From the NCBI RefSeq assembly GCF_003337245.1, contig NZ_QPJE01000003.1, forward strand, positions 1 through 64,000: DNA of 64,000 nt, read 5' to 3'. This DNA comes from Halanaerobium sp. MA284_MarDTE_T2. GTDB lineage: Bacteria; Bacillota; Halanaerobiia; Halanaerobiales; Halanaerobiaceae. The notes below the pieces were generated by a model, which did no database searches, was not told the DNA's origin, and saw only the letters and a list, made by a program, of their open reading frames with translations. Of this stretch, positions 5,953-63,276 are shown in pieces. A program made the position numbers and the translations under genes. How positions within the stretch are numbered: the stretch's first letter is position 1; each line of letters starts with the position of its first letter.

Positions 5953-6117
5953 GTTTTGAGGATTGGAAAAAGCTTAAATTTACAGATATAAAATTTTATA
6001 ATATGGATATAAATTTTAACTTAAATTGTATAATTAAATTTTACAAATACGTTAAATTGTTATATAGTTATAATATAAATTGTTAAATATTTATTTTTAA
6101 AATTAAATAATTTATAT

Positions 6118-6324
6118 AAAAAGGTGCTTCAGCTATTACTGAAGAGAATAGGGAATCAGGTTAAAATCCTGAACGGGCCCGCCACTGTAACTGATCTTTA
6201 GATTCTTTTATACCACCTGTAATGTTATTACAGGGAAGGTTAGAATTTAAAATGTAAATCAGGAGTCAGGAGACCTGCCTTTTATATAATCTACAATTGG
6301 CCTCGGGAACAGGTTGCAGGTGGA
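6118..6324 (+). promoter_or_regulatory. Cobalamin (adenosylcobalamin) riboswitch
   Basis: Contains the conserved core AGGGAA...GGTTAAAATCC, GCCCGCCACTGTAA and the B12 box GTCAGGAGACCTGCC (about 6265-6280) in the expected order. The AT-rich DNA before it (5953-6117) shows no gene. It controls the cbiP-cobO genes downstream, presumably lowering their expression when cobalamin is plentiful. Confidence 0.93.
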
Positions 6325-37232: not shown

Positions 37233-37344
37233 GCCAGCGGTAAAGCTACTGCTGTTGAAAAAGTATAGCAGGATGTTTTTTTTACAATAAACCTTTACAA
37301 ATAGATACAGAACTGATAGAATAAATTCAGAAAAATTGAATATT

Positions 37345-37452
37345 AACTAACGAGGATGGGTGAAATTCCCTACCGGTGGTAAAGTCCACAAGCCTTTGGG
37401 GTTGATCTGGTGTAATTCCAGTACCGACAGTACAGTCTGGAAGGGAGTTAGG
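37345..37452 (+). promoter_or_regulatory. FMN riboswitch (RFN element)
   Basis: Core segments in order: GAGGATGGGTGAAATTCCC, TACCGGTGGTAAAGTCCAC, GATCTGGTGTAATTCCAG, TACCGACAGTACAGTCTGG and AAGGGAG, closed by CTAAC/GTTAG. It controls ribD-ribE-ribBA-ribH and should repress when FMN is abundant. Confidence 0.95.
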
Positions 37453-37554
37453 TGTTTCTGATGAGAAATTACCTAAATTTGTTCTGCATCTGCATTATAA
37501 ATTTAATCTGCAGAGATGATATTTAAGGTGTTTTTCGGCAGTGATGACTTCATA

Positions 37555-37582
37555 CCCTTCCAGAAATGGAAGGATTTTTTAA
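37555..37582 (+). terminator. FMN-riboswitch terminator
   Basis: CCTTCCA, loop GAAA, TGGAAGG then ATTTTTTAATT, just before the ribD ribosome site. It is the likely off-state structure. An in-frame ATG at 37516 lies upstream of this hairpin and so is not a credible ribD start. Confidence 0.85.
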
Positions 37583-37596
37583 TTGGAGGTGTGTTA

Positions 37597-38703
37597 ATGG
37601 AAAAAGAGGATAGAAAATATATGCAGAGGGCACTGGAGTTAGCTGTAAAAGGTGAGGGTTTTACCAGCCCCAATCCTGTTGTTGGTGCAGTTGTTGTGAA
37701 TAATGGAATTATAGTTGGAGAGGGGTATCATAAATATTATGGAGGTCCACATGCAGAGGTTTATGCTCTCAATGCAGCTGGCGAAAAAGCAGCAGGAGGG
37801 ACTATATATGTAACATTAGAACCCTGCAGCCATTATGGGAAAACACCACCATGTGCTCTAAAAATTATAGATTCCGATATAAGAAGGGCCGTTATAGCGC
37901 TGGAAGATCCCAATCCTGAAGTTGCTGGAGGAGGTATTGAAATGCTCAAAGAAGCTGGTATAGAAGTTGAAGTTGGTCTTCTAAAAAAGGAGGCTGAAAA
38001 ATTAAATGAAATTTTTTTAAAATATATTACTTCTGATCTGCCCTATGTATATCTCAAAAAAGCCCAGACTCTGGATGGATTTACTGCAGCCAGAAGTGGC
38101 GATTCTAAATGGATAACAAACAAAAAAGCAAGACTTGAAGGACATAAACTCCGCCATAAGGTTGATGCTGTACTGGTTGGTATTGGTACAGTTCTAAAGG
38201 ATAATCCATCTCTCACCACAAGACTGGAAGATAGTCCCGGCAGAGACTCCCTGCGAATTGTTTTGGATTCTAAACTGAGAATTTCTGCTGATCTAAAGAT
38301 ATTAAATCAGGAATCTGACGCTGGAACACTGATAGTATGTGGTAGAGAGGCTGATAGAGATAAAAAAAACATATTATCTCAAAAAGAAAATGTAGAGATG
38401 ATGGAAGTAGAACTTAATAGAGAAGGGAATATACCTGTTAAAAAACTGTTAAAAAAACTGCATAAACGAAAAATATCCAGTCTGCTTGTAGAAGGAGGGG
38501 CCAGGGTAAGTTATTCTTTTGCAAAGGCAGGACTGGTAGATAAATATTATTATTTTATTGCTCCTAAACTTCTGCTCGGAAGTGATGGGACTGCTGCTTT
38601 TTCGGGGGCTGGCCCGGAGCTGATGAAAGATGCAAAAGAACTTCATATAATTGAACAGAAAATGCTGGATGATAATATTTTTTTAATTGCGGAAGAAATT
38701 TGA
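37597..38703 (+). CDS. ribD: Bifunctional riboflavin deaminase/reductase
   Basis: 368 aa from ATG 37597 after TTGGAGGTG. N-terminal zinc deaminase (HAEVYAL, then EPCSHYGKTPPC), C-terminal NADPH reductase (LKKAQTLDGFTAARSGDSKW; LLVEGGARVSYSF). Carries out deamination and side-chain reduction of the pyrimidine intermediate. First gene of the rib operon. Confidence 0.95.
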   Translation: MEKEDRKYMQRALELAVKGEGFTSPNPVVGAVVVNNGIIVGEGYHKYYGGPHAEVYALNAAGEKAAGGTIYVTLEPCSHYGKTPPCALKIIDSDIRRAVIALEDPNPEVAGGGIEMLKEAGIEVEVGLLKKEAEKLNEIFLKYITSDLPYVYLKKAQTLDGFTAARSGDSKWITNKKARLEGHKLRHKVDAVLVGIGTVLKDNPSLTTRLEDSPGRDSLRIVLDSKLRISADLKILNQESDAGTLIVCGREADRDKKNILSQKENVEMMEVELNREGNIPVKKLLKKLHKRKISSLLVEGGARVSYSFAKAGLVDKYYYFIAPKLLLGSDGTAAFSGAGPELMKDAKELHIIEQKMLDDNIFLIAEEI

Positions 38704-38848
38704 TTCCCTATCCACATTTTAAAAAGAGCGAGACTTTTTCGGCTGAATTTGGTAATAGATAATATTAAGACAGATAATTAATAAAGTATTTTAACGAGTA
38801 TAGATAGTTTAACTTTAACTTAATAGATAAAAAAGTGAGGTGATGGTT

Positions 38849-39511
38849 GTGTTTACAGGAATTGTTCAGGAAACAGGAAAGCTGCAGAACAGAATTGAGG
38901 GTGCTACTAAATATCAGCTGAAAATATCAGCAGATAAAGTGCTGATAGATATTAAAAAAGGAGACAGTATTGCCGTTAATGGAGTCTGCCTTACTGTCGT
39001 AGATTTCGACAGCAGCTCTTTTACGGCAGATGTAATGCCGGAAACTTTAAATTCTACCAATCTATCTGATCTAAAAAGTTCTTCTATAATTAACCTGGAG
39101 CAGTCACTTAGAATGAATGATTTTGTGGGCGGCCATTTTGTTACAGGACATGTTGACGGTACTGCAGTTTTGAGAGATATCAAAAGAGAAAAAAATGCTC
39201 ACCTGCTTCAGCTGGTCTGCAGTGATAATTTAACTCAGTATATAGTAAAAAAAGGTTCTGCAGCTTTAAATGGAGTAAGTCTGACAGTTATGGATATTAA
39301 AGAAAATATATTAACAATATCTCTGATACCGGAAACATGGAGTTCAACCAATTTTAAATATATAAAGCGGGGAGACAGGATTAATATTGAAGCTGATATT
39401 TTGGGGAAATATGTTCTAAAATTGCTGGGAAAAGATAGGAATCAGGTTAAAAGCGGCAGTAATAATAGTAGTATAACAGCTGACTTTTTAAAGAAAAATG
39501 GTTTTTATTAG
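38849..39511 (+). CDS. ribE: Riboflavin synthase alpha chain
   Basis: 220 aa from GTG 38849, giving the canonical MFTGIVQE N-terminus, 5 nt after AGGTGAT; GTG 38840 and ATG 38843 overlap that site. Two tandem lumazine-binding repeats, with NGVCLTVVD, then GHFVTGHVDGT, then NGVSLTVMD. Dismutates 6,7-dimethyl-8-ribityllumazine. Preceded by a 145-bp spacer with no recognised signal and followed by 186 bp of AT-rich DNA before ribBA. Confidence 0.94.
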   Translation: MFTGIVQETGKLQNRIEGATKYQLKISADKVLIDIKKGDSIAVNGVCLTVVDFDSSSFTADVMPETLNSTNLSDLKSSSIINLEQSLRMNDFVGGHFVTGHVDGTAVLRDIKREKNAHLLQLVCSDNLTQYIVKKGSAALNGVSLTVMDIKENILTISLIPETWSSTNFKYIKRGDRINIEADILGKYVLKLLGKDRNQVKSGSNNSSITADFLKKNGFY

Positions 39512-39697
39512 AGTATTAATAGTTTTGGTTGATTAGTGGTTTAATTAGGCTGTATTTTCAAGTAAAATATAAAAAATTTCATTTATGACGGAATCTTTTT
39601 TGTAATTCTAAAAATAATTTTGAGTAAACTCCTTGTTATATCATTTCAAATTCATCAATTATTTTTTCTTAATTATATAAATCAGAAAGGAGCTATT

Positions 39698-40906
39698 ATG
39701 AATAAAATTGAAGAAGCTTTACAGGATATTAGAAGTGGGAAGATGATTATTGTTGTTGATGATGAAGATCGAGAAAACGAAGGTGACCTTTTTATGGCAG
39801 CTGAAAAAGTAACAACAGAAAATATTAATTTTATGATAAAGGAAGGTAGAGGTCTTGTCTGTACACCAATGCAGGAAGAGAGATTAAAAGAGCTGGATCT
39901 TCCCCTTATGGTTAGTAAGAATACTGATCCACATAGAACAGCATTTACAGTTTCTGTTGATCACAAAGATACTACAACTGGGATTTCTGCTGAAGAAAGG
40001 GCTTTGACTATCAGCAGGCTTATTGATGAAGAGGCTAAAAAGACTGATTTTAATAGGCCTGGGCATGTATTCCCTCTTATTGCAAAAAGAGGTGGGGTTT
40101 TAAGGAGGGCCGGACATACAGAAGCTGCTGTGGATCTGGCAAAAATGGCAGGTCTTTATCCGGCCGGTGTAATTTGTGAGATTATTAAAGAAGATGGTCA
40201 GATGGCACGAATGCCGTATTTAGAAAAATTTGCGGAAAAATATGATTTAAAAATAGTCACTATAAAAGATCTTATTAAATACAGAAAAAGAAAAGATAAA
40301 CTGATAAAAAAAGCGGCTGAAGCTGTACTGCCAACAAAATATGGAGAATTTGATATAAAGATTTACAGGAGTGAAATTGACAGCAGAGAGCATATTGCAT
40401 TAGTTAAAGGTGATGTCCAAAATAAAGAGAATGTTCTTGTTAGAGTTCATTCTGAATGTCTTACAGGTGATACATTTGGTTCACTGCGATGTGACTGTGG
40501 AGAGCAGCTGGCTGCAGCCCTATCAATTATCAATAAAGAAAAAAGCGGAGTTTTTCTTTATATGAGGCAGGAAGGACGTGGTATTGGGCTGGTTAATAAG
40601 ATAAAGGCATATGCACTTCAGGATAAAGGGATGGATACAGTTGAAGCAAATGTAGCACTCGGTTTTGACCCTGATCTCAGAGATTATGGTATTGGTGCTC
40701 AAATACTGGCTGATCTTGGCCTCAGCTCTATCAGACTGCTGACCAATAATCCCAAAAAGATTATTGGTTTGGAAGGTTATGGACTTAAAGTTACAGATAG
40801 AATTCCACTGGAAGTAGATCCAAATGAAGAAAATGAATTTTATCTTAAGGTAAAAAAAGAAAAAATGGGTCATATTTTAAATTTTAATAAAGGAGGAAAA
40901 GAATAA
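39698..40906 (+). CDS. ribBA: 3,4-dihydroxy-2-butanone-4-phosphate synthase / GTP cyclohydrolase II
   Basis: 402 aa from ATG 39698 after AAAGGAG. DHBPS domain ([34 protein letters not shown]), then GTP cyclohydrolase II with the zinc site [18 protein letters not shown] and RQEGRGIGL. Supplies both riboflavin precursors. Stop overlaps the ribH start. Confidence 0.95.
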
Positions 40907-41370
40907 TGACAAAAATTTATGAAGGAAAGCTGACAGGTAAAGGTATTAAAGTTGGTATAGTAGTAGGGCGTTTTAATGAATTTATATCCAGTAAACTTTT
41001 GGATGGGGCTCTTGATGGACTTAAAAGACACGGGGTTGAGGATGATAATATAGAGATTGCCTGGGTGCCTGGGTCTTTTGAAATTCCATTAACTGCTCAA
41101 AAAATGGCTTCAGGCAGCAAATATGATGGAGTTATAGCTCTTGGTGCAGTTATTAGAGGTGAAACACCACACTTTGATTATATTTCTTCTGAAGTGGCAA
41201 AAGGAGTTGCAAAGGTGGGACTGGATGCAGGAAAACCGGTTATATTTGGGGTTTTAACAACAGATACAATTGAGCAGGCCATTTCTCGGGCCGGTACAAA
41301 GTCAGGTAATAAGGGCTTTGATGCAGCTGTATCACTGATTGAGATGGTAAATCTTTTTAATGAATTATAA
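40906..41370 (+). CDS. ribH: 6,7-dimethyl-8-ribityllumazine synthase
   Basis: 154 aa, usual length. [44 protein letters not shown] with the catalytic His, and [11 protein letters not shown]. Last gene of the rib operon; ATG overlaps the ribBA stop after AAAGGAGG. Confidence 0.96.
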
Positions 41371-41448
41371 AAGCTGAAATTTACTTTTAAGCTCAGTTAT
41401 ATTATAATTATTTTAAACAATTATCTCTCAGCCAGGGTGGAGGCAGTT

Positions 41449-42501
41449 ATGGAAAATAAAAACAACCAGGGAAAAAAAATAAGTTTAAGAAAATATATGT
41501 TTTATTTTGTACTTTTTTTAATTATATCTGCACTGACACTGTATTATATTTATAATCTGCTTGGAAAAGAATCTGAATTCAAGATCTTTTTAGAATTTCC
41601 TCTTCCAGTAATAAGTTCATTATTTGTACTGCTGATGCTTTATTTTGTACTGGATGGGCTGCGCCTATTTTTTATATTAAAAACACTGCAGATAGAAATT
41701 GAATTCCTTCATATTTTAAAGCTTGTATTTATAAATTTGTTTGTTTCCAATATTACACCTCTTGCTACCGGTGGTGGGGTGGCTCAGGTATATTTTCTTC
41801 ACCGCAAAGGAATTCCTTTAGGCAGTGCTACAGCAGCAACTACTATCCGGACTGCCCTGGCTACTACAATTATTTTTACAGCAGCTCCACCTATACTTCT
41901 AAACAACCAGAAACTTTTGGCATCTTTTAGTGGCATACCCATTTTTGTGTATTTATTTATCTTTATAATTCTTTATTTTTTGGTTTTTTATATAATTATT
42001 TTTAAAAACAGATTTCTTAAAAAAGTTGTATATAGAGCCCTCAATTTTCTTAAAGAAAAAAATATTATTTCTGCCGATAAATATGATTCAGGGCTGAGAT
42101 ATATGCTGGAAAATATTAATCTGTTTGGAGAAAGATTGAGTTTTTTTTTGAAGGGGAATAAAGTACATATCTTTCTTTCTGTGCTTTTTACAATTTTATT
42201 TTTGCTGGCTGAGTTTTCCTTTTCTGTACTGCTTTTAATTGGAATGGGATATCAGATAAATTATTTGTCTGTTATTTTTCTGCAGCTTGTTGTTGTATTT
42301 TTTATGTACTTTGCTCCTACTCCTGGTGCAGCAGGTGTGGCAGAAGGTGGTTATTCTTTCTTTTTTAGCAGTTTTGTATCAAAACAGGATATTTTCCCAC
42401 TACTGTTTGCCTGGCGATTTTTAACAAAATATGTAGGAATATTTATAGGTATACTGGTATTTTTATTTTTAATGACCAGAGGAGAGGACAGCAATGAATA
42501 G
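41449..42501 (+). CDS. Polytopic membrane protein, UPF0104 / LPG-synthase transmembrane family
   Basis: 350 aa from ATG 41449 after GGGTGGAGG. Seven or eight hydrophobic helices; NLFVSNITPLATGGGVAQVYFL near residue 95 and PTPGAAGVAEGGY near residue 290 are the hallmark segments of the family (PF03706), whose members act in lipid flipping or aminoacylation. The catalytic C-terminal domain of MprF is absent. It overlaps the next gene by 8 bp, suggesting that the glycosyltransferase fusion and this protein work on the same membrane lipid or glycan. Confidence 0.85.
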   Translation: MENKNNQGKKISLRKYMFYFVLFLIISALTLYYIYNLLGKESEFKIFLEFPLPVISSLFVLLMLYFVLDGLRLFFILKTLQIEIEFLHILKLVFINLFVSNITPLATGGGVAQVYFLHRKGIPLGSATAATTIRTALATTIIFTAAPPILLNNQKLLASFSGIPIFVYLFIFIILYFLVFYIIIFKNRFLKKVVYRALNFLKEKNIISADKYDSGLRYMLENINLFGERLSFFLKGNKVHIFLSVLFTILFLLAEFSFSVLLLIGMGYQINYLSVIFLQLVVVFFMYFAPTPGAAGVAEGGYSFFFSSFVSKQDIFPLLFAWRFLTKYVGIFIGILVFLFLMTRGEDSNE

Positions 42502-44692
42502 CAAAAAAGTCGTATTTTTAATTACAGTTTTTATTTTACTAATTTTATTTACACACAGTATCTATGCACCAATGACAATTGAAAATTTTAATGCTGTTAA
42601 TTTGCAGAATATAAACCAGATTAAAGAAAATATAAAAGATAAAAAGTTTTCTTTTGCTGTTGTGGGAAATATAGAAAACTCTATCAGTATTTTTGATAAA
42701 AGAATACTGCCGGTTTTGAAATCCAATTCAGCAGATTTTATAATCTCCACTGGTAATAATGTGCGGGATGGTAATGAAGGTAAATACAGGGTTTTTTACC
42801 GCACACTGCAGAAAATGAATATACCATTTGTGACTGGAGTTGGGCAAAAAGAAATTGGAGATGAAGGATTTAAGAACTTTTATAAGTATTTTGGCCCATT
42901 TTATTTTTCTTTTGCTGCTGCTGATTCCTATTTTATTTTTCTGGATACAACCGGTCATACTCCGGACAACTGGCAGCAGTCATGGCTGGAAGATGAGCTT
43001 AAAACAGCTGTTTCTTTTGAAAATATTTTTGTAATAATGAATAAAGCTCCTTTTAAAGTGGAGACCGAATCACTGCTTGATGATAAAGAAAAGTTTATTG
43101 AACCTGATTCTAAACGAGAGTTTTACCAGTCATTATTTTCAGAATATAATGTGGATGCAGTTTTTTCGTCAAATGCTGATGTTTTTTCCAGAAAGAATAT
43201 CAATGGTGTCAGCTATATTATAACCGGTGGTGCAGGAGGAGAACTGATATTAGAAAATGACAGCAGCTTTTATCATTATATAGAAGTTGAGGTTGACCAG
43301 GCTGGTGTTGATATCGAGGTAAAAAAACTTGAAAACAATCCCGGGATAATTGCAAAAATAGCTGTCAATATCTGGGTTGCGGTTCAATCTTTTATTTACA
43401 CAAACTATATTAATATTATAATTGCCGCACTGATAATTTTTATGGTAGGTTATATAATTTATAGAGAAATGACAAGAGAAATTGACTATTACCGCAACTT
43501 TTCCTATTCGGAAGAGGTAGATGAGGACAGAAAACTAAAAATTGCTATGTTCACCAACAATTATTTTCCGGTAATAGGTGGTGTCCCTATTTCTATAGAA
43601 AGGCTGTCCAGATCTCTGCGCAATCTTGGACATGAGGTTAAGATATTTGCGCCTCAATATCCGGATTATGACAGAGAGAAAGAAAATATTATACGCTGCA
43701 GCTTACTATATTATTATAAACAGGATGGAATGGATATTCCTATAACTAATATTTTTTCCAGAAAGATAGAAAATGAATTTTATAAAAATGATTTTGATAT
43801 TGTTCACTGTCATCACCCTTTCTGGCTTGGCTCAAAAGGAATGTCCTTAGGACACAAATATAATGTGCCGGTAGTTTTCACCTATCATACAAGGCTGGAA
43901 AAATATGCTCACTATATACCTGGATTTCTATTTTTGCGCAGGCTTTTTGCAAATAGGTTTGCCCATCTTATGATCAGACATTTTTCTAACAGGGCCAATG
44001 CTGTATTTGCCCCTACAGATTCTACACAAGAATATCTGAGGGCTATTGGTGTTAAACGATTTATTAAAGTTATACCGACAGGAGTGGATTTTGATAATTA
44101 CAGCATAGATGAAGGTTCAATTTCCAAGCTGCGCAGTAAGCTGGCAGATGAAGAGATACTGCTCATTACTGTTGCCCGTCTTTCTAAAGAAAAAAATCTA
44201 TATTTTCTGCTGGATGGAATTAAGTATGTTAAGAAAAATTCTGATTTAAATTTTAAACTAATTGTGCTGGGAGATGGACCGGAACGAGATAATCTTCAGG
44301 ATTATATTAAGGAAAACAACTTAGAAAATAATGTTGAACTGCTGGGCAGCATCGATTTTGAGGAAATAAGCAGATATTATCTGGCTTCAGATTTATTTGT
44401 ATTTGCTTCAACCAGTGAAACTCAGGGTATGGTTCTGCTGGAAGCCATGGCAGGTAAAACGCCTGTGGTTGCAGTTAGATCAAGTGGAACAGATGATGTA
44501 ATTAAAAATGGATATAACGGTTATAAAACAGAAGAGGATGTAAAGAGCTGGGCCGAAAAAGTTATTAAGTTAATGAAAGATGATGAATTATTAGCGAAAA
44601 CATCAGAAAACGCCCTAAAGATGGCACAGAAATATTCTATTATGAATATGGGAAAAGAAGCGGAAAAGGTTTATAAAAAGCTTCTTAAATAA
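42494..44692 (+). CDS. Membrane-bound fusion: degenerate metallophosphatase domain + GT4 glycosyltransferase
   Basis: 732 aa. Residues 7-24: first membrane segment; about 50-265: outside domain with a calcineurin-phosphoesterase layout; 305-323: second membrane segment; 348-732: cytosolic GT4 glycosyltransferase. The GT half is complete (NNYFPVIGGVPISIERL; HCHHPFWLG; PTGVDFDNY; ETQGMVLLE as the EX7E motif) and resembles diacylglycerol glucosyltransferases. In the outside half the metal-binding sites look replaced: GDxH reads GNIE (58-61), GD reads GN (87-88), GNHE reads GVGQ, and GHDH reads SNAD (226-229), while the fold segment YIITGGAGG is kept. It is therefore probably a binding or sensing pseudo-enzyme. 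Confidence 0.82.
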   Translation: MNSKKVVFLITVFILLILFTHSIYAPMTIENFNAVNLQNINQIKENIKDKKFSFAVVGNIENSISIFDKRILPVLKSNSADFIISTGNNVRDGNEGKYRVFYRTLQKMNIPFVTGVGQKEIGDEGFKNFYKYFGPFYFSFAAADSYFIFLDTTGHTPDNWQQSWLEDELKTAVSFENIFVIMNKAPFKVETESLLDDKEKFIEPDSKREFYQSLFSEYNVDAVFSSNADVFSRKNINGVSYIITGGAGGELILENDSSFYHYIEVEVDQAGVDIEVKKLENNPGIIAKIAVNIWVAVQSFIYTNYINIIIAALIIFMVGYIIYREMTREIDYYRNFSYSEEVDEDRKLKIAMFTNNYFPVIGGVPISIERLSRSLRNLGHEVKIFAPQYPDYDREKENIIRCSLLYYYKQDGMDIPITNIFSRKIENEFYKNDFDIVHCHHPFWLGSKGMSLGHKYNVPVVFTYHTRLEKYAHYIPGFLFLRRLFANRFAHLMIRHFSNRANAVFAPTDSTQEYLRAIGVKRFIKVIPTGVDFDNYSIDEGSISKLRSKLADEEILLITVARLSKEKNLYFLLDGIKYVKKNSDLNFKLIVLGDGPERDNLQDYIKENNLENNVELLGSIDFEEISRYYLASDLFVFASTSETQGMVLLEAMAGKTPVVAVRSSGTDDVIKNGYNGYKTEEDVKSWAEKVIKLMKDDELLAKTSENALKMAQKYSIMNMGKEAEKVYKKLLK

Positions 44693-44975: not shown

Positions 44976-46568
44976 TTATCTGGGCTTTGCAGGTTCTATA
45001 TTGATTTTTTTGCCTTTTATATAATTATCCTTCATTATCTGCAGAACATCCTGGCCGCTTTCTTTTGGTACTTCTACAAAGGTGAAGTTTTCGAAAACAT
45101 CGATAGCTCCAATGAGGCTGCCTGATAGTCCGGTTTCTCCAGCAATTGCTCCAACTATGTGGCGGGGAGATACTCTATCTTTTTTGCCAACATTAACAAA
45201 TAATCGTACCATGCCTGGCTCTGCACCTGTATCACCAAAATCTTTTATTTCAACTACATCCTCATCCTCTGTATCCAGTGATTTTTTCATCAGTGCTGCT
45301 GCAATTTCTATAGCAGTATAATCATCATCAAGCAGATCTTCGATTATTTTTATATATCTTCCCAGACGTTCTTTTGCCATATAATCAGATAATTCATCTA
45401 TAAACTGCTCAAATTTTGCTTCTTCTACATCATCCACAGTAGGAATCGGCTGGCGTTTTACCTTGGTTTTTGTATATTTTTGAATATCTCTCAACTTGTA
45501 AATATCTTTGCCAACTATAAATGTAAATGCCTGGCCGGTTTTCCCAGCTCTCCCGGTTCTGCCTATTCTGTGTACATAATAATCTGTATCCTGAGGAACA
45601 TCATAATTAAATACTGCTTCTACATCATCAACATCTATACCTCTTGCTGCAACATCTGTGGCAACTAAGATTTCTATAATACCGGTGCGAAATTTTTCCA
45701 TGACTCTGTCGCGCTGGTTCTGATTTAAACCACCGTGGATGGAATCGGATAAATATCCTCTGGCCTGCAGCTGAATATTCAGCTCATCGACCATTTTTCT
45801 GGTATTACAGAATACTATAGAAAGATTGGGAGTGTGATAATCCAGCAGTCTTGTTAGTACTTTTAATTTGTTACCTCTTCTTACATCATAATAATTCTGT
45901 TCAATTCCTGGAACTGTCAGCCTCTCATGTGCTACTTTAACAAATTCTGAGTTTTTTTGATATCTTTTGCTGAGGTTCCTAATAGCTCTTGGAATTGTAG
46001 CAGAAAAGAAGAGTGTCTGTCTGTTTTCTGGAATATCTTTCAGTATTGTCTCAATATCGTCTACAAATCCCATATCCAGCATTACATCTGCTTCATCTAA
46101 AACAACATAATCTATGCTGGAAAGCTTTAAAGTACCGCGGCGGATATGATCCATTACTCTGCCTGGAGTTCCTATAACTACCTGAACACCTTTTTTGAGT
46201 GCTTTAATCTGTCTTTTAATTGACTGCCCTCCATAAACCGGCAGGGTATGAAGATTTCTCTTATATTTTGCCAGTCTTTTTAGTTCTTCTGCAACCTGAA
46301 TTGCAAGTTCTCTTGTTGGGCAGAGTATAATCGCCTGTGGATTTTTGTTATTTGTATCAACTTCATCCAGAAGAGGAATACCAAAAGCTGCTGTTTTCCC
46401 TGTACCTGTCTGTGCCTGCCCAATAATATCTTTACCGTCTAAAATTTTGGGAATAGAGTTTGTCTGAATCGGTGTTGTTTCTTCAAATCCCATGTCATTT
46501 ACTGCTTTTAATATATCTTTTGATACATTTAATTCTTCAAATTTAATTTTTTGCAAATCTATTTTCAC
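44976..46568 (-). CDS. DEAD-box ATP-dependent RNA helicase, CshA/DeaD type
   Basis: 530 aa. Q motif GFEETTPIQ, AQTGTGKT, PTRELA, VLDEADVML, FFSATIP, and HRIGRTGRAG. C-terminal residues about 455-530 form a DbpA-type RNA-binding domain (VRLFVNVGKKDRVSPRHIVG). Starts at GTG 46568 by frame; a TTG four codons in has better spacing to AAAGGAAG and may be the real start. Sits after a Csp gene on the same strand, so probably aids RNA unfolding at low temperature and ribosome assembly. Confidence 0.92.
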   Translation of the reverse strand: MKIDLQKIKFEELNVSKDILKAVNDMGFEETTPIQTNSIPKILDGKDIIGQAQTGTGKTAAFGIPLLDEVDTNNKNPQAIILCPTRELAIQVAEELKRLAKYKRNLHTLPVYGGQSIKRQIKALKKGVQVVIGTPGRVMDHIRRGTLKLSSIDYVVLDEADVMLDMGFVDDIETILKDIPENRQTLFFSATIPRAIRNLSKRYQKNSEFVKVAHERLTVPGIEQNYYDVRRGNKLKVLTRLLDYHTPNLSIVFCNTRKMVDELNIQLQARGYLSDSIHGGLNQNQRDRVMEKFRTGIIEILVATDVAARGIDVDDVEAVFNYDVPQDTDYYVHRIGRTGRAGKTGQAFTFIVGKDIYKLRDIQKYTKTKVKRQPIPTVDDVEEAKFEQFIDELSDYMAKERLGRYIKIIEDLLDDDYTAIEIAAALMKKSLDTEDEDVVEIKDFGDTGAEPGMVRLFVNVGKKDRVSPRHIVGAIAGETGLSGSLIGAIDVFENFTFVEVPKESGQDVLQIMKDNYIKGKKINIEPAKPR

Positions 46569-55143: not shown

Positions 55144-55219
55144 GGGCGAATAGCTCAGCTGGGAGAGCACCTGCCTTACAAGCAGGGGGTCACAGGTTCG
55201 AGCCCTGTTTCGCCCACCA
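55144..55219 (+). tRNA. tRNA-Val (anticodon TAC)
   Basis: Acceptor GGGCGAA/TTCGCCC, anticodon loop CTTACAA, CCA encoded. First of a seven-gene operon. Confidence 0.96.
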
Positions 55220-55222
55220 TTA

Positions 55223-55299
55223 GGAGGTGTAGCGTAGCGGTTTAACGCGCCGGCCTGTCAAGCCGGAGATCGCGGGTTCAAATCCCGTCTCCTCCGCCA
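55223..55299 (+). tRNA. tRNA-Asp (anticodon GTC)
   Basis: Anticodon stem CCGGC/GCCGG with loop CTGTCAA; T-arm GCGGGTTCAAATCCCGT; CCA encoded. One U-U mismatch in the acceptor stem. Confidence 0.95.
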
Positions 55300-55304
55300 T
55301 TTTT

Positions 55305-55380
55305 GGTGAGATAGCTCAGTCGGTAGAGCAGTGGATTGAAAATCCACGTGTCGACAGTTCGATTCTGTCTCTCACCACCA
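55305..55380 (+). tRNA. tRNA-Phe (anticodon GAA)
   Basis: Acceptor GGTGAGA/TCTCACC, anticodon loop TTGAAAA, CCA encoded. Confidence 0.96.
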
Positions 55381-55390
55381 TGTTTTTTTT

Positions 55391-55465
55391 GCGGGAATAG
55401 CTCAGTGGTAGAGCATCACGTTGCCAACGTGAGGGTCGCGAGTTCAAATCTCGTTTCCCGCTCCA
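55391..55465 (+). tRNA. tRNA-Gly (anticodon GCC)
   Basis: Acceptor GCGGGAA/TTCCCGC, anticodon stem CACGT/ACGTG with loop TGCCA region giving GCC, CCA encoded. Confidence 0.95.
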
Positions 55466-55477
55466 TTTGGTCATTAT

Positions 55478-55552
55478 GGCGGCATAGCCAAGTGGTAAGG
55501 CAGAGGACTGCAAATCCTTTATTCGACGGTTCAAATCCGTCTGCCGCCTCCA
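55478..55552 (+). tRNA. tRNA-Cys (anticodon GCA)
   Basis: Acceptor GGCGGCA/TGCCGCC, anticodon stem AGGA/TCCT with loop CTGCAAA, CCA encoded. Confidence 0.96.
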
Positions 55553-55584
55553 AAAAAAGATTTAAAAAATTGCCAGTGAAATCT

Positions 55585-55673
55585 GCCGGGGTGGCGGAAT
55601 TGGCAGACGCATCGGACTTAAAATCCGGTGGGTATTTTTACCCGTGTCGGTTCGAGCCCGACCCCCGGCACCA
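55585..55673 (+). tRNA. tRNA-Leu (anticodon TAA)
   Basis: Acceptor GCCGGGG/CCCCGGC, anticodon loop CTTAAAA, long variable arm GGGTATTTTTACCC, CCA encoded. A decayed copy of its 3' two-thirds is found at 56144. Confidence 0.96.
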
Positions 55674-55690
55674 CTTTTTGAAATTGAAAT

Positions 55691-55709
55691 ACGACAAGTT
55701 TCTTGTCGT
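55691..55709 (+). other. Hairpin abutting tRNA-Val(GAC) 5' end
   Basis: ACGACAAG, loop TTT, CTTGTCGT: a perfect 8-bp stem ending on the base before the mature tRNA 5' end. It may help RNase P or endonuclease processing of the precursor. Confidence 0.5.
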
Positions 55710-55786
55710 GTGGATATAGCTCAGCTGGTCAGAGCGCTACGTTGACATCGTAGAAGTCAGTGGTTCGAATCCACTTATCCACACCA
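55710..55786 (+). tRNA. tRNA-Val (anticodon GAC)
   Basis: Acceptor GTGGATA/TATCCAC, anticodon stem CTACG/CGTAG with loop TTGACAT, CCA encoded. Last gene of the tRNA operon. Confidence 0.95.
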
Positions 55787-58118: not shown

Positions 58119-58140
58119 TATAAAAAATTTATATTATTAA

Positions 58141-58368
58141 ATACGCTGAGAGGGAAGAGTAAGTTTTGCTAATTCTAAAAGAGAATTGTGCCTTTGGCTG
58201 AAAGCACATAGAATTTATCTTAACTGAAAACCACCCTGGAGTAGGCAGGAGGAATTAAGTATTCCTGCTCGGATAACTCGTTAAAAATTTGAAAGTGGTC
58301 AGTTGATCTGGCAACTAGAGTGGAACCGCGACCCGTCGTCTCTATTTATTGAGATGGACGGATTTTTT
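58141..58368 (+). promoter_or_regulatory. T-box leader of thrS, with terminator
   Basis: The stem I start GAGAGGGAAGAGTAAG, the T-box AGAGTGGAACCGCG (58317-58330) and the terminator CCGTCGTCTC...GAGATGGACGG with TTTTTT (to 58368) are present. The likely specifier is ACC (Thr) in GAAAACCACC of stem I. Uncharged tRNA-Thr would favour read-through into thrS. Confidence 0.92.
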
Positions 58369-63011: not shown

Positions 63012-63276
63012 AAAATATATTAACAGCGCTGAAGGAGAGAGTAATTATTTTGTTTCTTTAATAGGGAACAGCTGTCAGTGACTGAAAACAGCTGTACTGA
63101 AACTAATACTGAAATTCACTCTAGAGCTGAAGGCTGAACAATTGAGTAGGCTGGTCCGGAAACTGACGCCATGAAGACATAGTTTTCGTTAACAAAGTAA
63201 AGTGATCCCATCATATTGGTGGGATAATCAGGGTGGTAACACGGTAATCTCGTCCCTTTTTGGGCGGGATTTTTTT
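63012..63276 (+). promoter_or_regulatory. T-box leader of pheS, with terminator
   Basis: Stem I begins GCTGAAGGAGAGAGTAA; likely specifier TTC (Phe) in CTGAAATTCACTC; T-box AGGGTGGTAACACGG (63230-63244); terminator TCGTCCC/GGGCGGGA with a seven-T run. The T-box variant has AACAC where the usual is ACCGC. No clear promoter lies between it and the yqzL terminator. Confidence 0.92.

Follow-up and report, generated by a model that had tools for sequence, protein, structure and literature searches.

The 64,000-nucleotide stretch of Halanaerobium sp. MA284_MarDTE_T2 that was analysed here (contig NZ_QPJE01000003.1, positions 1 to 64,000, hereafter the window) carries at 42494–44692 of the forward strand an open reading frame (ORF) of 732 amino acids, which joins an extracytoplasmic domain of the metallophosphatase fold, predicted to be inactive, to a cytosolic family 4 glycosyltransferase (GT4) through a membrane helix. 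Its first 8 bases overlap the ORF of a flippase-like UPF0104 protein (41437–42501). The best reading of this gene pair, which we hold to be somewhat better than an even bet, is that the fusion protein glycosylates diacylglycerol and that its inactive outer domain serves to bind either the glycolipid after export or the flippase.

The outer domain alone gave no clear family with Pfam, NCBIfam or plain phmmer, the last returning weak matches to purple acid phosphatases (PAPs) at E 0.001, and it was recognised only by a family profile and by fold search. There was no Pfam entry for it, and PF00149 was not matched even at E 10, below the gathering cut-off of that model, while the active stand-alone relatives scored 35–53 bits against 21.5. 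The profile, built from 12 homologues, matched the plant PAP 2qfp at E 8e-7, and in this alignment the ligand histidines of the PAP stand opposite N and SSNxE of the fusion family. The AlphaFold2 (AF2) model of the domain (predicted local distance difference test, pLDDT, 87.7; predicted TM-score, pTM, 0.83) was searched against the PDB with Foldseek, where PAPs ranked first (E 1.5e-12) and Plasmodium GAP50 (3tgh) third; GpdQ was also among the matches, as was Rv0805, with a TM-score of 0.75 when normalised by target length. By model and profile the ectodomain is of the calcineurin-like/PAP fold with alpha/beta/beta/alpha layers; the initial annotation had read a phosphoesterase layout in it, and the alternative outcome, a fold of another kind, did not occur. 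Fold, strand order and the profile match are shared with PAPs and with SpdA–Rv0805-type calcineurin-like phosphoesterases (PF00149), but those enzymes keep the metal site, which is missing from all 25 fused homologues. In the full-length model, helix 3–28 is followed by the ectodomain, a single helix (285–327), a linker with pLDDT under 50 (328–341) and the GT-B domain.

The loss of the metal site was followed in an alignment of the window's ectodomain and 24 further ones of the fusion family (in 23 of these the GT4 frame that follows is open, and one is truncated where its contig ends) with 14 stand-alone relatives, all of which keep GD, GD, GNHD, H and HxH. All canonical ligands of the window protein are replaced (N59, N88, Q118-K119-E120, N183, N227 and D229), and an intact site was found in 0/25 fusion-family ectodomains and in 14/14 stand-alone relatives; two members retain a single Asp, the first in L034 and the second in L030. 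The replacements are not random, with Asn usual at 59, 88 and 183 and with the catalytic Asn–His of GNHD freely variable. The changes of GDxH to GNIE and of GD to GN and the loss of the His motif, which had been noticed from the sequence of this gene, proved real and in register with the 14 relatives, but the third motif, then written GVGQ, had been placed three residues early (it is G117-Q118-K119-E120), and a fifth one, in which NKAP stands for HxPL and the His has become N183, had been overlooked. Conservation of D, E, H and C across the fusion family revealed no new conserved set that could form a substitute site, and thus gave no sign of the intact site made of other residues that would have contradicted the initial annotation. 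Since the five-motif pattern (GD, GD, GNH(D/E), H, GHxH) fails, the ectodomain is, as judged from its sequence, not a catalytic calcineurin-like phosphatase or PAP.

Near the former motifs in sequence, residues specific to this clade have become invariant (S63, K97, R99, E120, Y130 and T153) or nearly so (S85, N88 and T156). The initial annotation had suggested that the domain may bind a phosphorylated lipid or glycan and control the enzyme inside; as to the ligand, the invariant basic pair K97 and R99, which is not common to most active relatives, leaves an anionic one possible. These residues also bear on the idea that the outer domain is a repurposed enzyme that carries out metal-independent hydrolysis or transfer on the flipped lipid. 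Conserved D151, E120, K97 and R99 remain for such a role, and active cousins hold the outer-face tailoring position in lipid operons, comparable to the proposed HexD step of hexSDF (PMC10128005); set against this, the missing D/E/H/C set and the drift of the catalytic Asn and His make a kept or newly gained chemistry very improbable.

In a maximum-likelihood tree calculated without the motif columns and rooted on a chosen outgroup, the dead ectodomains formed one clade with 100/100 support, and therefore a single loss of the metal site is apparently the simplest reading. Nonsynonymous changes (dN) were well below synonymous ones (dS) in close pairs (dN/dS roughly 0.1–0.4), which indicates purifying selection on a domain that is maintained and not decaying, and the identities of ectodomain and GT4 half correlate (r = 0.93). 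Degeneration to a pseudogene was rejected on this dN/dS relation and on conservation across members from Bacillota, Deferribacterota and Thermodesulfobacteriota. The fusion occurs in 10 of the 38 genomes of the window's order, in two genera only and in two copies in some Halanaerobium genomes; beyond the order it was found in Clostridium, Sinanaerobacter, Hespellia, Epulonipiscium-type metagenome-assembled genomes (MAGs), Deferribacterales and one Desulfobacterales MAG.

The C-terminal half belongs, on predicted GT-B fold, EX7E motif and Pfam match, to GT4. PF00534 (7.8e-40) and PF13439 (2.7e-33) were matched far above the Pfam cut-off (136.6 bits vs 26.4), and E642 and E650 of the EX7E motif, noted earlier as intact, are invariant in 25 homologues. 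BshA and MshA were the best PDB matches of this domain in Foldseek, with PimA further down. The best of all NCBIfam models was NF049988, the alpha-monoglucosyldiacylglycerol synthase (MGS type), with 196 bits, some 68 bits ahead of the second-best model. With this synthase the fusion shares the GT4 fold, EX7E and a full-length match over residues 348–731, but the modelled family spans 398 positions and has neither ectodomain nor transmembrane (TM) helices. Within genomes the match is exclusive: the fusion scored 200 bits in the window's genome, where the next gene reached 55, and 196 against 57 in Halanaerobium praevalens, whose genome also carries the fusion gene and whose other GT4s, where tested, scored best with polysaccharide or other non-lipid models. 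No lipid glycosyltransferase of the PF06925 type (UgtP or monogalactosyldiacylglycerol synthase) was found in 14 Halanaerobiaceae genomes. The glycolipid of H. praevalens makes up 43–47% of its total lipid and is a single diacylglycerol derivative (PMC3156398). Because of these lipid data, the lack of a PF06925 enzyme and the lack of a comparably scoring rival, the fusion is, from sequence comparison, the leading candidate for the enzyme that makes this glycolipid.

Neighbouring genes were counted in the 28 fused loci whose upstream side could be read. UPF0104 adjoins the fusion in 24 of them, including one where it is split over two frames and one where a transposase separates the two genes. 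The split gene is that of Sinanaerobacter chloroacetimidivorans (L029:4882-5712), either broken or a sequencing error, and in one Halanaerobium saccharolyticum strain UPF0104 is duplicated in tandem upstream of the fusion (L022:3854-5957). A DUF374-like gene, of a family that resembles lysophospholipid acyltransferases, adjoins the fusion in 13 loci (Clostridia, Deferribacterota and G732), none of them in Halanaerobium; three members tested were above the Pfam cut-off, and that of G732 matches the family weakly and gave no hit in Pfam. The assumption that the GT4 is always fused had to be rejected, as unfused orthologues exist at 50–54% identity. None of the six unfused orthologues has a UPF0104 or DUF374-like neighbour, and in G643, which contains both versions, the partners stand only beside the fused copy. 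Chance adjacency of UPF0104 was rejected (24/28 fused vs 0/6 unfused, Fisher p 1.6e-4, a value to be read with the relatedness of the loci and with only two or three independent unfused lineages in mind). Since two unfused pairs are nested inside the fused group of the GT4 tree (a third pair is basal, and several deeper branches are moderately supported), the ectodomain seems to have disappeared on at least two occasions, and in neither case did the flippase gene stay as a neighbour.

Two further explanations were considered. In one, the ectodomain would be purely a structural anchor or a dimerisation or scaffold module that holds the GT4 at the membrane beside the flippase and binds no small ligand. 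A membrane-anchored PAP fold that serves as an anchor is known from Plasmodium GAP50 (PMC8949495), the third match of the fold search, and the GT4 gene has outlived loss of the ectodomain in at least two lineages. GAP50 differs from the fusion in being eukaryotic, in carrying no fused enzyme and, according to an earlier study, in being an active acid phosphatase; moreover, the conservation of S63, S85, N88, K97, R99, E120, T153 and T156 exceeds the needs of an inert anchor, and two TM helices would already suffice for anchoring, which leaves this explanation unlikely. In the other, the GT4 would act on a polyprenyl-linked glycan or polysaccharide instead of diacylglycerol, and the flippase-like protein would move that intermediate. 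The GtrA and DedA/VTT families also serve polyprenyl carriers, and a GtrA gene in one fused locus and a DedA/VTT gene in another occupy the usual place of UPF0104; GT4 specificity is unreadable from sequence, and BshA and polysaccharide models match too. Against such an acceptor stand the position of the fusion gene outside any polysaccharide cluster, the recurrent DUF374 and MprF-type neighbours, the lead of the lipid model and the need of H. praevalens for a diacylglycerol glycosyltransferase, for which no better candidate was found, so that we regard it as rather improbable.

An apparent separate-gene version of the fusion unit was found in two Deferribacterales genomes (G791 and G793), where three overlapping genes of one operon encode a GT28, a two-TM phosphatase that keeps every motif, and an MprF-flippase-like protein. 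The same three functions are present as in the fusion unit, and the phosphatase has the two-TM layout and about 25% identity to the ectodomain; the differences are that the genes are separate, the metal site is intact and GT28 takes the place of GT4. The GT28 of G791 scored best, at 204 bits, with the diglucosyl-diacylglycerol synthase model, and the operon of G793 has a VTT-PAP2-LssY gene as its neighbour. In a third Deferribacterales genome (G790) the active phosphatase stands without GT28 and the flippase-like gene, and in G650 (L109:2534-4033) the gene of an intact, PF00149-positive phosphatase immediately precedes UPF0104 and the fusion with the dead ectodomain; the GT4 frame of that fusion locus ends about 60 residues early. 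The arrangement of GT28, phosphatase and flippase can be likened to hexS-hexD-hexF of Clostridioides difficile (PMC10128005) and gpgSDF of Pseudomonas aeruginosa (PMC12713373), in the first of which, according to a published proposal, the lipid is tailored by an outer-face enzyme after it has been flipped. Like the fusion unit, these operons combine a lipid glycosyltransferase with a UPF0104/MprF-type flippase for a membrane glycolipid. Synthase, deacetylase and flippase do not stand together at the fusion locus: the first and the last are present, but no deacetylase gene accompanies them, and the glycosyltransferase carries the dead phosphatase domain as a fusion. The glycolipid synthesis and transfer unit proposed in the initial annotation gained support from the lipid data of H. 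praevalens, from the exclusivity of the match within genomes, from the diglucosyl-diacylglycerol synthase homologue of the separate-gene version and, as a conserved pair with UPF0104, from the survey of homologues.

Under the preferred reading, that of a diacylglycerol glycosyltransferase with an inactive binding domain, the membrane-tethered GT4 would move a hexose, probably glucose from uridine diphosphate (UDP)-glucose, onto diacylglycerol at the inner leaflet, and the UPF0104/MprF-type protein would carry the product across to the outer one. The ancestor of the outer domain would be a phosphatase or phosphodiesterase that worked at the membrane in this pathway. Its metal site would have disappeared a single time, when the domain was fused to the glycosyltransferase or later, and the domain would have been retained for binding the headgroup of the exported glycolipid or the flippase. 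Such binding may keep synthesis and export together and perhaps tune synthesis to the supply in the outer leaflet. Its position, the co-occurrence and the separate-gene version support a role of the ectodomain in the export step at the outer face, and it probably helps to receive or sense exported glycolipid rather than cleaving phosphate. A more specific proposal is that an outer-face lipid phosphatase, once captured by the glycosyltransferase, gave up catalysis and turned into a receptor that reads the exported glycolipid or the flippase in the outer leaflet and signals via TM2 to the glycosyltransferase; we put this forward only tentatively.

Several observations weigh against the preferred reading. 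The NF049988 scores (196–200 bits) are half of the 400-bit equivalog cut-off and do not place the protein in that family, and for this reason the acceptor of the glycosyltransferase is not proven; matches to the same model below its cut-off also came from 11 of the 14 genomes used as controls. A lipidomics paper on H. congolense features phosphatidylglycerol, cardiolipin, phosphatidylethanolamine, phosphatidylcholine and diacylglycerol, and the word glycolipid appears solely in its introduction. The fusion is absent from two near-complete Halanaerobium genomes (G011 and G013) and from one genome of a third genus (G022). Finally, UPF0104 is not a strict companion of the ectodomain, because four fused loci lack it as a neighbour: L030 has an overlapping VTT/DedA gene instead, L111 has a GtrA-type gene beside the fusion, and in the related Epulonipiscium MAGs of L033 and L034 no UPF0104 match was found anywhere in the genome.

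The features are collected in Table 1. The UPF0104 neighbour passed the cut-offs of both PF03706 (124.1 bits vs 33.4) and TIGR00374 (107.9 vs 43.2), in agreement with the overlapping flippase-like gene described earlier. Its start is probably ATG 41449, as judged from the sequence, because GGAGG precedes this codon and GTG 41437 overlaps the GGAGG. A strong Shine-Dalgarno-like sequence, GAGGAGAGGA, lies immediately 5′ of ATG 42494, within the UPF0104 gene.

Table 1. Positions of the fusion gene, its parts, its neighbour and the separate-gene operons (window coordinates unless a locus is given)
Feature	Position	Strand	Basis
UPF0104/LPG_synthase_TM gene (MprF-type flippase domain)	41437..42501	+	PF03706, TIGR00374, neighbourhood
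Fusion gene, TM1–inactive metallophosphatase ectodomain–TM2–GT4, 732 aa	42494..44692	+	Pfam, AF2, Foldseek
TM1, residues 3-28, N-terminus predicted inside	42500..42577	+	helix 3-28 in both AF2 models; hydrophobic, Lys before
Predicted extracytoplasmic pseudo-metallophosphatase domain, residues 29-284	42578..43345	+	profile, Foldseek, metal-site alignment
Former motif I, now VGNIEN, residues 57-62; ligand Asp 59 to Asn	42662..42679	+	alignment with 14 relatives
Former motif II, now TGNNV, residues 86-90; ligand Asp 88 to Asn in 24/25	42749..42763	+	alignment, conservation
Former motif III (GNHD), now GQKE, residues 117-120; E120 invariant	42842..42853	+	alignment, conservation
Former motif IV (HxPL), now MNKAPF, residues 182-187; ligand His 183 to Asn in 21/25	43037..43054	+	profile, alignment, conservation
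Former motif V (GHxH), now SSNADVFS, residues 225-232; both His ligands (227, 229) gone	43166..43189	+	profile, alignment
Juxtamembrane helix and TM2, residues 285-327, predicted out to in	43346..43474	+	full-length AF2 model
Cytosolic GT-B fold GT4 domain, residues 347-732, EX7E = E642/E650	43532..44689	+	Pfam, NF049988, Foldseek
GT28–active two-TM phosphatase–MprF-flippase-like operon	L099:3551-6685 and L100:3635-6760		

The gene 3′ of the fusion (44976–46568) encodes, by sequence, a DEAD-box helicase on the opposite strand. On the other side, a flavin mononucleotide (FMN) riboswitch (37342–37456) is followed by 37516–41370, in which riboflavin biosynthesis genes were recognised by sequence at 38840–41370; these stop 66 bases 5′ of the UPF0104 ORF, and read-through from them into the glycolipid pair is possible. 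Elsewhere in the window, Rfam returned a cobalamin riboswitch (6104–6296), two T-box leaders (58137–58346 and 63020–63260) and a cluster of seven tRNAs (55144–55783).

Glycolipid operons with a glycosyltransferase and UPF0104 are already known. In the literature searched no described fusion of a metallophosphoesterase with a glycosyltransferase was found, though work elsewhere may exist, and the fused, conserved pseudo-metallophosphatase ectodomain of single origin appears to be undescribed in the libraries and papers searched; the overlapping GT28, phosphatase and flippase genes are apparently an undescribed type of glycolipid operon. For Halanaerobium, the analysis names a candidate gene for the glycolipid that makes up nearly half of the lipid of H. 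praevalens. For the family, it offers an evolutionary series, from a separate active phosphatase in a lipid operon to a dead ectodomain fused beside a flippase and to secondary loss of the ectodomain together with the flippase neighbour, which suggests a reason for keeping a dead phosphatase fold. The unit may become a tractable system for studying how cells balance glycolipid synthesis in one leaflet with export through flippases of the MprF/UPF0104 type, for which few partner proteins are known. If the receptor proposal is true, the fusion would represent a control of glycolipid supply across the bacterial membrane that is built from a pseudoenzyme within a single protein.

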